From Allodiplogaster sudhausi (taxonomy: Eukaryota; Nematoda; Chromadorea; Rhabditida; Diplogasteridae): a DNA stretch of 64,000 nt. Position numbers and translations under genes: made by a program. Shown here in pieces: positions 18,770 to 36,415 of this stretch. Where the stretch lies: positions 1,661,501 to 1,725,500 of the forward strand of contig CALZFC010000043.1 of assembly GCA_945643635.1 (NCBI GenBank). The letters are read 5' to 3'. The notes beneath the pieces were generated by a model. It made no database searches and was not told the DNA's origin. It saw only the letters and a program-made list of their open reading frames with translations. Position 1 is the first letter of the stretch. Every line of letters starts with the position of its first letter.

Positions 18770-18836
18770 AGACAGTGTGAATTAAAAAGTTTGGTTTTTT
18801 TTTCTGCATTTTTCAGTTTTGCTGTTATTTTTGGCA
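18770..18836 (+). repeat. Left terminal inverted repeat
   Basis: Matches the reverse complement of 36353-36415: AGACAGTGTGAATTAAAAAG, then GTTTGG, a T-run of different length, CTGCA, and GCTGTTATTTTTG after a few mismatches. Confidence 0.5.
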
Positions 18837-19345
18837 AGCAAATTTGCCAGTTTTCAAACCCAGTTATTATGCCATGGCAATTTGTATGATTGTCAAGAAT
18901 GTCATCAATGTTTATTCCTCATTATTCATCATGCCAAAATCAACAGCTGACTAAAATGGCGAAAACAGCCTAACCAAAAAACAAACGAGTCAAAAGGGCG
19001 AGGCAAAATTGTACAAGTGTCAAAAGAACATGGCACAGAAAATGGTCAAAAAATTTGTCACAGCTTCTCGAGAAGGAGTGGGCCTTTTTGACAAAAAAAA
19101 TCAGCTGATAAATCTGCCAAGATTACCTGCCAGAGTTGATCAACAGCTAAATTTGCCAAGCCAAAATATTAGAGTAAAAAATTTGTCAAATCAGCTCCAA
19201 TTTTGACGGCTAGCAAAAATGGCATGGCAGTTTAAACAGGTGTCAAAAAAGTCCGGCAAATTTGATGGCTATCAAAATTGGCTAGGCATTTTTTACGGTT
19301 GTCAAAACTGGCTCGTCATTTTCAACGACCGTCAAATTTGGCGAA
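18837..19345. repeat. Left subterminal motif zone
   Basis: Many degenerate copies of a TTTGACGGCTGTCAAAA / TTGGCAAG type motif, such as TTTTGACGGCTAGCAAAAAT near 19200 and ACGGTTGTCAAAACTGGC near 19297. The same family fills 35770-36350 next to the right end. Confidence 0.5.
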
Positions 19346-19573
19346 AGGTTGAAATTTCAACATCGGACCAATTAAAACAGTGCTAGAAAAATGGAGTATG
19401 GAACAGCAGAAAATAAGTGAAATTATAATGTTAACTAAACAAAAATCGGCGCTAGCAATAAGTGTACTTACGAACTAGAGAGAAAGCATGGATTCAAAAG
19501 AATCAATTCGCAATATGGAGACTAACCAGATTGAAGGCAAAAATCAGGGTTGGTATATAAAACAGACGGTTCC

Positions 19574-19650
19574 TTTTTAACCTCCACCGGTGATTCTTCG
19601 GGAGGTCGACTCGAAGTGCTGGCGGTAGGTCTCGAGGGCCGCCATGGCCT
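19574..19650 (-). other. Possible isolated minus-strand exon
   Basis: Acceptor-like CTTTGCAG before ATGGCGGCCCTCGAG and a GT donor after an open stretch with the residues ALETYRQHFESTSRR. Codon use looks protein-like and the borders fit, but I cannot join it to anything. Unrecognised. Confidence 0.5.
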
Positions 19651-20335
19651 GCAAAGATGTTGAGGAAGGTAAAACAAGAGAGGGGTGAAGGGAGATTGAG
19701 ATTAAAGAAAAGGATAAAGAAAAAGGAACAGGGGTTACGGTATAAATGGTTGAAAAAGCTTCCTTTGAAATTTTGGAAGAAAAAAGAGAAATAATATCCA
19801 CAACTTGTTTGTTCAGATTAAGTTACGACTAAATAGGAACACTAACAACTCCACATTTTAAAGGAATTCTTCCATTAGACAGTTAAAAATAGGAAGGGAA
19901 CTTAACTCACGACAACACTACAAGGAAATCAAGGATGTTAACTATACGGGGGGGGGGGGGGAGGTAGCCCACCCTTATATAGAAGCACTCATTTCTGTGG
20001 ATTTCCTGGTTCAATTCACTCGAAGAGACTGGATTAGATGGTTTTTTTCCTTCAAAGAAATTACAATACAATGGGGCAAAATTATGGGCGCGATACCCAA
20101 AGTGATTAGTTTTAGACTATTACCCTTGTACCGGCCGCAGGTAAAGCTCTGAAACAAGTACCAAATCCACCTGCTCCTCCCTTTCAAGAGTGACCCTACC
20201 GTCACATGATCTTCGTAAGCAAATTATTGACATGGTTTTACGGTTTTATTTAGATTTTCTTTACATTTAGTCCACTCTTGTTAAAAATTCCTTTTAACAA
20301 TAGTAAATATTGGAACTTTTCTATTCATATTTCAG

Positions 20336-20455
20336 CAAGAAACGACTATCTTGCTCGAAAGTCAAGCTGCCTCGCTGCTCGAATCGTGGCCTCGACGGCA
20401 TGGACGTGTAGTGGGAGTGCCGCCGGAGATGGACGACCGAGGCCAGTTTGAACAG
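20336..20455 (+). other. Possible plus-strand exon (40 codons)
   Basis: Between ATTTCAG and CAG/GTTCTG splice-like borders, phase 0 at both ends, encoding 40 residues including QAASLLESWPRRHGRV and PPEMDDRGQFEQ. The open, protein-like frame and clean borders support an exon. No family recognised, and neighbouring exons are uncertain. Confidence 0.5.
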
Positions 20456-20610
20456 GTTCTGCTTTATTATTGTTTTTCTCTTGTCTATTATAATTTCTAT
20501 TTTTCTAAGTTAAATCGATTTGATATTTTCTAGGGTTAGATTCTTTCATTAATGTGCACTTGTTGGTCAATAGTTTTAATTGTTTATGTTTTGCCAAAAA
20601 TAATTGTTAT

Positions 20611-20722
20611 ATGGTCATCCCTCCCACATAACCCCGATTACTGTCTCTCTACTGACCCGTTCCATAGCCACACCAACGAGATAGTAGTTTATCGAGTAGG
20701 GACACGACCGGGTCCGATAGAG
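20611..20722. repeat. Copy of the mini LTR element's internal end
   Basis: About 112 bp (TATGGTCATCCCTCCC onward to CCGGGTCCGATAGA) nearly identical to 34181-34293, which there lies just inside the left LTR of the 34-35 kb mini element. Confidence 0.5.
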
Positions 20723-20861
20723 TGCGGTGACATACAACAACAACAAAGCGACAAACAATACGAGCCATGTGCAACACAGCACTTTGCCTCATCCACTTGA
20801 GCCAAACAATCTTTCGTCCTTGAATTATTTCAAGGACGAAAGAAATGGACTCCAACCTTGG

Positions 20862-20995
20862 CAATTTATTTATTTATTTATTTATTCATACATCAGTTTA
20901 ACGATGTGACAACATTACAGTGACTTGTGAGATGGTAAAACTTTCGATTTCAGAATAATAATAATAATAATGAATAGTAATAGAAAAGGGAAAGG
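20862..20995 (-). repeat. Short interspersed repeat with (TTTA)n tail, copy 2
   Basis: Inverted copy of 1327-1460, here with the ATTTATTTATTT tail on the left and an AATAATAATAATAATG microsatellite inside. Confidence 0.5.
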
Positions 20996-33960: not shown

Positions 33961-34033
33961 CTTACCAGCTGGTCCCAGTCTCCTCGAGCTTGACCTGCAG
34001 ATGATAAACTCAGGGTGGGTGGGTGGGACTAAA

Positions 34034-34176
34034 CACCCTACGAACGCTCGTCGTAGAATGCTCTCTTTTCCTCTTGTCCGCCCTTCGCTACCCTTACTGT
34101 ACCCTAACTTGCACATCATTCCACATTTGAAAACCCGTCTATTTCACGGTCCACTACTAGAGACAAGTAATCAGCA
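34034..34176 (-). repeat. Mini element 3' LTR
   Basis: 143-bp direct copy of 35192-35334; the main visible differences are ACTAC(T/G)AGAG and the base after CAGCAA. Confidence 0.5.
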
Positions 34177-34876
34177 ATTATATGGTCATCCCTCCCATAT
34201 AACCCCGATTACTGTCTCTCTACTGACCCGTTCCATAGCCACACCAACGAGATAATAGTTTATCGAGTAGGGACACAACCGGGTCCGATAGAAAAACGAA
34301 AGTCCCCTTCTGTTAGGAGCAGAGGAGGAATCTAAGGAGCTGTAGGCCCAAAACCTGGATGCGTGCCTCCCGAGGCGATAGCCCATACCCTCCCGGTCAA
34401 CAGAATAACCTCTCTAACACCTTCGAGATCAGCGAGGGAGGAGGAAATGACTCACCAAGAGTTGTAACGAGCCTCCTTGTTCCTAGACGCTTCAGAGGAA
34501 GAGGACCCAGTCGACGAAGCGGCTTGTGTGATCACGAGGGCCCTTCTGGTGACCTCGTCAAGGCATCCGGACAGGACCTTGGCCTTATCCAAAGCGTCCC
34601 AGAATCCGGGATTGGCATCGGCCAATCGCATGTGTGTGAGCCTCTCCTCCAGCTTCTCCTTAGCCGTAGCGATGCTGGCGAGGGATCCATTCCACGAACC
34701 GGCAGACTCAGCTTGGTCTAGGTCGGACAGCGCCTCAACCAGAGGCTTCGCTGACTCGCGATACACTGCAAGCACACTCTCGATAAATCACCATACCAAC
34801 TCTTGGATGGGTGACAAGAACGGGTCCCAACTGAGGACCCGACCTCCCCAAATTGAGGGAGGATAACCAGCTCTGG

Positions 34877-35092
34877 TTATAGGGGGAAAAACACGACCAC
34901 TCTGGTCTGCGAGAGGGCAAAAACCTTTGGTGGAGAACTGCGGAACTTCTCGACGGGGGGCGGCGCCACTGCAATCGACTGGAAAAGCACTTGCCGGACC
35001 CTCTCTGCGAACTCTTCCGGCGAAAAGTGGCCGGATGGGGCAGCTGGGCCGGGTGGAGGAGCCGGTGGCTGACCTCCTTGGTTATCTGCCAT
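34877..35092 (-). pseudogene. Short gag-like ORF of the mini element
   Basis: ATG at 35092 just downstream of the primer site, reading MADNQGGQPPAPPPG then FSPEEFAERVRQVLFQ. A Pro-rich start followed by a helix suits an LTR-element gag N-terminus. It ends after 71 codons; a related helical stretch (REYAKPL-like, EALSDLDQAESAG) continues in another frame at 34452-34775, so the gag is broken. Confidence 0.5.
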
Positions 35093-35191
35093 CACGTAAC
35101 TGGAAATAAACAGAAACAGTCCGCCTTACTGGCGGGATATTATATGAAATCTGAGAAAAGAAAATCTTAACAGAAATGAAACCTGTCACCA

Positions 35192-35334
35192 CACCCTACG
35201 AACGCTCGTCGTAGAATGCTCTCTTTTCCTCTTGTCCGCCCTTCGCTACCCTTACTGTACCCTAACTTGCACATCATTCCACATTTGAAAACCCGTCTAT
35301 TTCACGGTCCACTACGAGAGACAAGTAATCAGCA
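35192..35334 (-). repeat. Mini element 5' LTR
   Basis: Partner of 34034-34176, abutting the TGGTGACAGG primer site. Confidence 0.5.
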
Positions 35335-35769
35335 AATATGTAAATGTAAGAGAATCTAGTTCAGGAGGTGCCGCCGGTCCTCGCCGTGCTTTCTTTGGTG
35401 GCGACGTCGATGATGGTTGTGGCAGCGGCGGACCTGGCTACGGCCCTCCTTCTTCGTGAGTCTTGCGTGGCCTGGGATTCTCAATGATCAAGTCATCTCG
35501 CAGCTGGAAGAGTTACCAACGATGGCCTTTCGAGTAGCTAGTATGTTAACCTTACTAACATTTATGAACTGACTTTTAGAATGTTGTAAAGACTTATATA
35601 ATATCCATTTATGCACACCTTATTGTAGAAGCAGTCTTTATTCATAACTGATCTAAATAGTTTTTTTTGTTTCCTATTTGTTATATTAGGATGCATGTGT
35701 GAATTTAGTGATCTGAGGACGGCTAAATGCTATTTTAATAGGAATATTTCGTCATGAGCCTTGTTTGTT

Positions 35770-36350
35770 GTCAAAAAAATGATTTGCCTTTTTTAACGGC
35801 CGTCAAAACGGCCATCCATTATTTACAGCCGTTAAAATTGGCTTGCCACTTTTGAAGGGTCAAACATTTGGCTTGCCATTTTTTCTGCCCGCTGAATTTG
35901 CCAAGTTGCCATTTTTGACGGCTGTCAAAATTGCCAAGTTGCTCGGCCGACAGCCGCTTCCTCGTGGCACGTTTAACAGCTGTTAAAAATGGCAAATCCT
36001 TTTGCTAATTCTGATAGTTGTCTGTGACATTTTTTATAAGTGAAAGACTTGCCAAAACCGTTGAAATTTTGAACATATGCAAATTGCGCCATGGAAAATT
36101 TTGAGGCCATCAAATTTGGCATGCTATGAATCGACTTTTAAAGACCTCTATTTTTGCCACGCCAAATTGTTTTCCTGTTAAATATGCCGAAGCCGGGTTG
36201 TCAATAATTAGGACACAATTCTGTGGCTCAGCCATTTTTGTCGCTTGTTCATTGTTCCCGTCATTTTATTAACCGTCGTATTTGTCATGACAAGTTTGAA
36301 TCAATGAATAAAATTCTGCCACATTTGCTTGTGTGTTTTACCTGCCAAAT
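35770..36350. repeat. Right subterminal motif zone
   Basis: Copies such as TTAACGGCCGTCAAAACGGC (about 35795), ACAGCCGTTAAAATTGGC (about 35823) and TTTGACGGCTGTCAAAATTG (about 35912). Clustered imperfect palindromes near a transposon end are typical transposase-binding or regulatory arrays; that role is inferred. Confidence 0.5.
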
Positions 36351-36352
36351 TT

Positions 36353-36415
36353 GGCAAAAATAACAGCTTAAGTGAAAATTGCAGAAAAAACCAAACTTTT
36401 TAATTCACACTGTCT
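36353..36415 (-). repeat. Right terminal inverted repeat
   Basis: Inverse of 18770-18836. Outer edge CACACTGTCT followed by TATA and then H3 sequence. Confidence 0.5.

Follow-up and report, generated by a model that had tools for sequence, protein, structure and literature searches.

A histone H3-variant gene of the nematode Allodiplogaster sudhausi is interrupted at positions 18767/36418 of the 64,000-nucleotide stretch that we analysed (C43:1661501-1725500, hereafter the window) by a sequence that ends in terminal inverted repeats (TIRs). A first-pass annotation had read these 17.6 kb as a single inserted unit. The comparisons presented here point to a different history: with high probability the insert is an ordinary stack of four nested insertions that resembles one giant element, and each of the inner insertions has its own ends and its own target site. 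In the reading that we favour, and hold with the same high confidence, a non-autonomous 2.9-kb TIR transposon (layer 1) entered the H3 gene, and layers 2, 3 and 4 were then added stepwise. We rank as the strongest single results the continuous alignments to independent copies that are obtained once layers 2 and 3 are omitted. The interrupted gene and layer 1 comprise the following features.

18707 to 18767, forward strand: 5' part of the split H3-variant coding exon (from the frame, the H3 protein search and the paralog in C33)
18766 to 18767: left target duplication TA of the outer element (alternatively ATAT, 18765-18768; the site is palindromic)
18768 to 36417, forward strand: layer 1, the outer TIR element (from the TIR, the family of 283 and 282 ends and the alignment to copy L017)
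18768 to 19390, forward strand: left TIR and subterminal motif zone (repeat and motif counts)
35795 to 36417, reverse strand: right subterminal motif zone and TIR (repeat and motif counts)
36418 to 36419: right target duplication TA of the outer element (alternatively ATAT, 36417-36420)
36418 to 36646, forward strand: 3' part of the split H3-variant exon 1 (exon end taken from the sequence)
About 36867-36995: second exon of the split H3-variant gene (exon ends taken from the sequence)

The H3 frame enters the left boundary and continues in frame past the right one when a single TA (or ATAT) is retained; the choices TA and ATAT give an identical, in-frame empty site, and the choice TATA is out of frame. 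Copy searches, here and below, covered the 351.8-Mb assembly. A genome search with the H3 protein scored 45 candidates and yielded 37 matches. Two of these are the halves in the window itself, and five of the 35 others were read at the insertion site. The canonical RKQLATKAARK stands there in four of these five genes; otherwise, one of the four, in C6, has an upstream region like that of the split gene and, like it, the residues VHGG. A paralogous H3-variant gene (C33:806905-807216, L047) has the site unoccupied and an open frame of 150 amino acids. Its N-terminal tail is enlarged after K18 relative to canonical H3, and both the enlarged tail and the upstream region are common to the paralog and the split gene. 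At the site, the paralog reads CGTAAGAGTATGCAG and the window reads CGTAAGAATA followed by the element and TATGCAT; therefore, one TA (or ATAT) has been duplicated. The earlier claim that an insert bounded by inverted repeats splits H3 coding sequence is borne out by the resumed frame and by this paralog, which shows an empty H3 site; the first-pass annotation had proposed to look for an empty H3 allele. In the first step of the proposed history, a non-autonomous TIR transposon of 2.9 kb, from a high-copy family, would have entered an ATAT/TA site in the first exon of the H3-variant gene and would thereby have broken its reading frame.

Layer 1 measures 17,650 bp with its nested inserts and 2,921 bp without layer 2 (18768-20606 plus 35336-36417). 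Its inverted ends are 100% identical over 36 bp (18765-18800 / 36385-36420), and the inverted repeat, previously put at about 65 bp, reaches about 80 bp once mismatches and gaps are allowed. With equal base frequencies, about 4e-13 perfect 36-mer inverted repeats would be expected in the window by chance, the true value being somewhat above this given the AT-rich ends. The subterminal motif zones of about 600 bp that had been noticed at first sight are confirmed by counting: the left 620 bp of layer 1 contain 11 copies of the motif GTCAAAANTGGC (at most two mismatches) and the right 620 bp contain nine, against a maximum of two and a mean of 0.27 per 620 bp elsewhere in the window (197 half-overlapping stretches) and about 0.16 per 620-bp stretch in mononucleotide shuffles.

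These ends are shared by a large family. The first 601 bp of layer 1 gave 40 scored matches of 549 candidates (92-100%, window included), and for the last 601 bp there were 553 candidates, the 40 scored among them yielding 68 matches. A 30-base end pattern with at most three mismatches finds 283 forward and 282 reverse matches, or 565 ends in the genome, so that the other copies with the same ends anticipated at the outset do exist; the reversed control of the pattern finds 0 and 0. Pair sizes are taken from 100 listed ends (exact matches only, contigs C1-C29), 84 of which form 42 adjacent convergent pairs, with 16 unpaired, and the pairing may err where an inexact end sits between listed ends. 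The 42 pairs span 257-11,213 bp, 30 of them 4.5-6.5 kb, and comprise four miniatures (257-278 bp), two pairs of 2.6-2.9 kb, 33 of 4.5-7.7 kb and three of 10.2-11.2 kb; all are exceeded by the 17.6 kb of the window. The miniature elements (257 and 278 bp) lie at C1:661794-662071, C4:2765872-2766128, C17:867199-867455 and C29:1884320-1884597. Twenty other outer copies were fetched, of which 18 gave both ends and two, without a second end, were left uncounted; with the window included, the left flank is ATATA in 19 of 19 copies and the right flank TATAT in 17 of 19. The family is characterised by its ends (TAAGACAGTGTGAATTAAAAAG), a strict ATAT target, subterminal arrays of a 12-bp motif over about 600 bp and a size from 257 bp to more than 10 kb, and it may be undescribed. 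Among the sequences fetched, an automatic search turned up no empty site of an outer copy. Two candidates were discarded, an outer-type end in C82 as a chance match and an inner element in L035 as a different palindrome.

Eight outer copies of 6.45 kb (L018-L026 except L025) are nearly identical: L018 and L020 match at 100% over 6,466 bp and the remaining six are 98.7-99.99% identical to L018, a degree of sequence identity that suggests a recent burst. No long open reading frame (ORF) was seen in L018, and the 6.46-kb copies have no long conserved frame. A 10.2-kb copy in C16 was considered as the autonomous partner of layer 1 and dropped, as the 4 kb of it that were read in an ORF scan contain no ORF of at least 100 amino acids. 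Apart from the window's own, no match to DUF1280, the Pfam family of the transposase in layer 4, falls within the 42 listed outer pairs (by eye; C1-C29 pairs). Inside the outer element, window positions 20336-20460 form a short stretch of open frame whose edges look splice-like to the eye. The L018 frame covering the equivalent of this stretch has 96% protein identity in L017, and the stretch may be a captured exon.

The second insertion lies within layer 1 and is recognized by its repeats.

20607 to 35335: layer 2, with split direct repeats; 2,112 bp without layer 3, no target duplication
20612-20721 (A1), 34033-34176 (B1), 34183-34292 (A2) and 35191-35334 (B2): repeats of layer 2 (repeat comparison)

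When the window's element is compared with the 18 other outer copies, the matches end at element position 1841 and resume at 16567, and no match of more than 100 bp to the 14.7-kb insert is listed for any of the 18. The insertion site of layer 2 is uninterrupted in 16 of the 18 copies and was not found in the other two (L031 and L032) with a site pattern that is able to detect uninterrupted sites only. Without layer 2, the outer element aligns to L017 at 97.7% identity, continuously through the junction. The flanks of layer 2, aattg and atatgtaaatg, give the L017 site when joined, with no target duplication.

Two repeats are each present twice in layer 2: Y3 (20612-20721 versus 34183-34292), with 107 of 110 positions identical, and X5 (34033-34176 versus 35191-35334), with 143 of 144. 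Among 41 matches listed (40 scored of 167 candidates), 19 other places carry the X5-Y3 junction (286 or more matching bases of 321), and 11 of them, again among the matches listed, have a second X5 (B2) about 1 kb beyond the junction. A compact copy in C75 (L050:4394-6560) has the full order Y3, X5-Y3, X5 in 2.17 kb. The window's layer 2, once layer 3 is omitted, aligns to this copy from end to end (2,112 bp, 94.1%), and the flanks in L050 also show no duplication. Because the compact copy has 2.17 kb, layer 2 would at best be non-autonomous. A Pfam scan covered the four ORFs of at least 120 amino acids in the L050 element and two in the window's layer 2, all taken as unspliced frames, and found no match (E up to 0.1). 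The repeat arrangement would make layer 2 PAT/Ngaro-like in architecture, and we do not claim membership. A long terminal repeat (LTR) retrotransposon was considered and rejected, as the ends are different repeats rather than copies of one LTR and the split-repeat order fits better. In the second step, then, this retrotransposon-like element would have entered layer 1 without a target duplication. Closely spaced repeats of the layer-2 junction are also seen at C256:2121990-2125043 and C33:1217053-1223646, which suggests tandem or recombined split-repeat elements.

The third insertion lies within layer 2.

20768 to 20776: left target duplication of layer 3, TGTGCAACA, 9 bp (L050 comparison)
20777 to 33384: layer 3; 12,608 bp, 6,751 bp without layer 4, with the empty site in L050
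27086 to 27973, reverse strand: reverse-transcriptase-like ORF (LINE-like by eye; no Pfam match)
30263 to 30865, reverse strand: exon-like stretch with a borderline match to PIG-V mannosyltransferase (PF04188; Pfam)
32026 to 33012: 420-bp tandem repeat, 2.3 copies (repeat search)
33385 to 33393: right target duplication of layer 3, TGTGCAACA, 9 bp (L050 comparison)

The sequence TGTGCAACA stands on both sides of layer 3 in the window and is single in L050, in matching context. The ends of the element read CAGCACTTTG and, inverted, CAGCACTTCG, and its TIR has about 10 bp (CAGCACTT[T/C]G). The PIG-V match scores 23.6 bits against a cutoff of 22.4, and the five layer-3 ORFs that were scanned, without intron models, gave no Pfam match to a Mutator-like element (MULE) transposase. 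In the third step, a TIR element with a 9-bp target duplication would have entered layer 2.

The fourth and innermost insertion carries a transposase.

21028 to 21033: left target duplication of layer 4, GGCATG (flank comparison)
21034 to 26884, forward strand: layer 4, a Chapaev-type element of 5,851 bp with TIR CACAGCGCTGGG; copies in C20, C82 and C90
22352 to 25057, forward strand: layer-4 transposase ORF (Pfam DUF1280)
26885 to 26890: right target duplication of layer 4, GGCATG (flank comparison)

The copies in C20, C82 and C90 have a CACAG start matching 21034, and those in C20 and C90 also have the end matching 26884; the C82 copy was followed to 25394 only, beyond which its sequence reads N. 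Identity is 96.9-100% in the main matched pieces, and the flanks are unlike those of the window. The termini are of the CAC...GTG form (CACAGCGCTGGG / CCCAGCGCTGTG in the window, C20 and C90; the left end also in C82), and all three two-ended copies, window included, have target duplications of 6 bp (GGCATG, AGAAAG and AGAAGC). In the fourth step, this Chapaev-type DNA transposon with its 6-bp target duplication would have entered layer 3.

The ORF of layer 4 matches PF06918 (DUF1280) with E=7.2e-17 (62.2 bits, cutoff 25), and two relatives match the same family (5.8e-17 and 1.2e-16). The genome contains diverse DUF1280 relatives: of 163 candidates 51 were scored, and these gave 56 matches. 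Those in C135 (L041) and C171 (L042) have open frames of 1018 and 1015 amino acids and are about 99% alike as DNA; their left ends read CACTGCGC and CACAGCGC, and the right end was not recognised as an inverted partner. Homology of the window's ORF to its relatives stops at about residue 816 (frame starting 22382). In an alignment with C135, C171 and C82, the window's ORF has the C(2)C and LH motifs and is without the H(4)H and GIEHLH part, whereas H(4)H and a downstream GIEHLH are seen in the three others (by eye; motif names C(2)C, LH and H(4)H from PMC4079192). C82 also carries about 1.3 kb at the C-terminal region of the ORF that the window lacks. Judged by this alignment, the window's enzyme is broken, its C-terminal catalytic part being missing. 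A search for viral-contig relatives of the transposase gave six pattern matches, none of them confirmed, and a comparison with solved structures gave no match at E <=10. The enzyme-like ORF and the gene-like cargo reported in the first-pass annotation are present inside the insert, but they belong to independent nested elements, the ORF to layer 4 and the cargo, with its borderline PIG-V match, to layer 3.

Stepwise nesting is the account that we favour as the most economical. Layer 2 (in L050) and layer 4 (in C20, C82 and C90) are found elsewhere without the other layers, and a single shared origin of the parts is already contradicted. The nearest copies read are 97.7% identical for layer 1 (L017), 94.1% for layer 2 (L050) and 96.9-100% for layer 4, values that are single comparisons and not a clock. 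Layer 1 would have been moved in trans by some transposase. Several points weigh against this account. A transposase for layer 1 was sought and none was found. The outer-first order is inferred from the nesting, from which dates do not follow, and an assembled stack could have entered the H3 gene as a unit. The C33 paralog has GTAT at the window's ATAT and carries, a few bases to the right of the duplicated TA, 24 bases that are absent from the window; because of these extra bases before homology resumes, the match at the empty site is short on its right side. As the outer duplication, TA and ATAT both fit the sequences compared. The boundaries of layer 3 come from one empty-site comparison, that with L050, and the junctions are known from the assembly sequence alone.

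The rival history that survives best is composite mobilisation, in which the stack was built elsewhere and then carried whole, as 17.6 kb, into the H3 gene by the outer TIRs. We consider it quite unlikely: it agrees with the intact outer ends and with the empty site of the H3 paralog, which fits a single insertion event, but no pair of comparable length occurs among the 42 measured. Very improbable is a single giant TIR transposon of 17.6 kb, inserted as a unit with its own DUF1280 transposase and cargo. Intact outer TIRs enclosing a transposase ORF and a gene-like fragment are what such an element would show; however, layer 4 has its own TIRs and duplication and copies elsewhere in non-matching flanks, layer 2 has many other copies, the layer-2 site is uninterrupted in 16 of 18 other outer copies and was not found in two, and 42 of 42 outer pairs measured among the ends listed have at most 11.2 kb. 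An ordinary or assembly-made H3 intron, an alternative already raised in the first-pass annotation, can practically be dismissed, for although the left junction shows a donor-like GTAAGA, this donor and the downstream AG are not in the same frame (both by eye), the C33 paralog has no intron at the site and the outer family has its 565 ends in the genome.

Elsewhere in the window, positions 2206-6961 (reverse strand) encode a BEL/Pao-type retrotransposon polyprotein (Peptidase_A17, RVT_1, DUF1758 and DUF1759). Very long open frames at 45813-59627 and 60026-64000 (reverse strand) encode a repeated GPDG...LPTD protein and are apparently a giant tandem-repeat gene; the frame that leaves the window has at its end a different stretch, which by eye is von Willebrand A-like. 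Neither Rfam nor tRNA scanning found anything in the window.

Neither the nesting of transposons nor insertion into a gene is new as a kind of event. The present case illustrates that an apparent giant transposon can be an ordinary insertion stack, and that the tests separating the two are the elements' own ends, their own target duplications and empty relatives. The high-copy TIR family and the Chapaev-type lineage with 6-bp duplications may be of use to transposon specialists, and the H3-variant gene pair with its enlarged N-terminal tail may also be of interest. We put forward tentatively, and as an unlikely proposition, that the outer family is an undescribed DNA transposon group and that the layer-4 elements are a Chapaev-type lineage with 6-bp duplications.

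Among known systems, Polinton/Maverick elements resemble the insert in being large and TIR-bounded. Their target duplication is 6 bp, in contrast to the TA or ATAT of the outer element, and the length of the insert would be due to nesting; nine distinct element ORFs scanned (not an exhaustive six-frame search) gave no Pfam match to PolB or the rve integrase. As far as tested, the earlier decision against a Polinton/Maverick assignment holds. A TA target duplication is a feature of Tc1/mariner-type elements, and for layer 1 such a duplication, as in these or other TA-target TIR elements, fits the empty site and the H3 frame. Layer 1 differs from them in its subterminal motif arrays of about 600 bp, and an ATAT duplication fits it equally well. 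A 9-bp target duplication is a feature of the Mutator-like family, which layer 3 resembles in this respect and in its gene-fragment content; unlike Mutator-like elements, layer 3 has a TIR of only about 10 bp, no transposase was found in it, and it is known here from one copy. PAT/Ngaro-type elements are not known to make target duplications. Layer 2 is like them in this and in its split direct repeats, A1..B1A2..B2, and unlike them in that its scanned ORFs gave no reverse transcriptase or tyrosine recombinase match. The order A1 ... B1A2 ... B2 is described as typical of the PAT and Ngaro tyrosine-recombinase retrotransposons in PMC4157794 and PMC8547959.

Layer 4 is closest to the Chapaev elements of the CMC group, with which it shares a DUF1280 transposase and CAC...GTG termini; of the motifs C(2)C, LH and H(4)H, the window's ORF has the first two, and H(4)H is seen in C82, C135 and C171. 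DUF1280 is assigned to Chapaev transposases, in one clade with RAG1, in PMC3985635. A literature search for Chapaev elements with a '6-bp TSD' found nothing, which is a weak test. The target duplications set layer 4 apart, as they have 6 bp in three of three copies, whereas those of Chapaev are given as generally 3-4 bp in PMC4079192.

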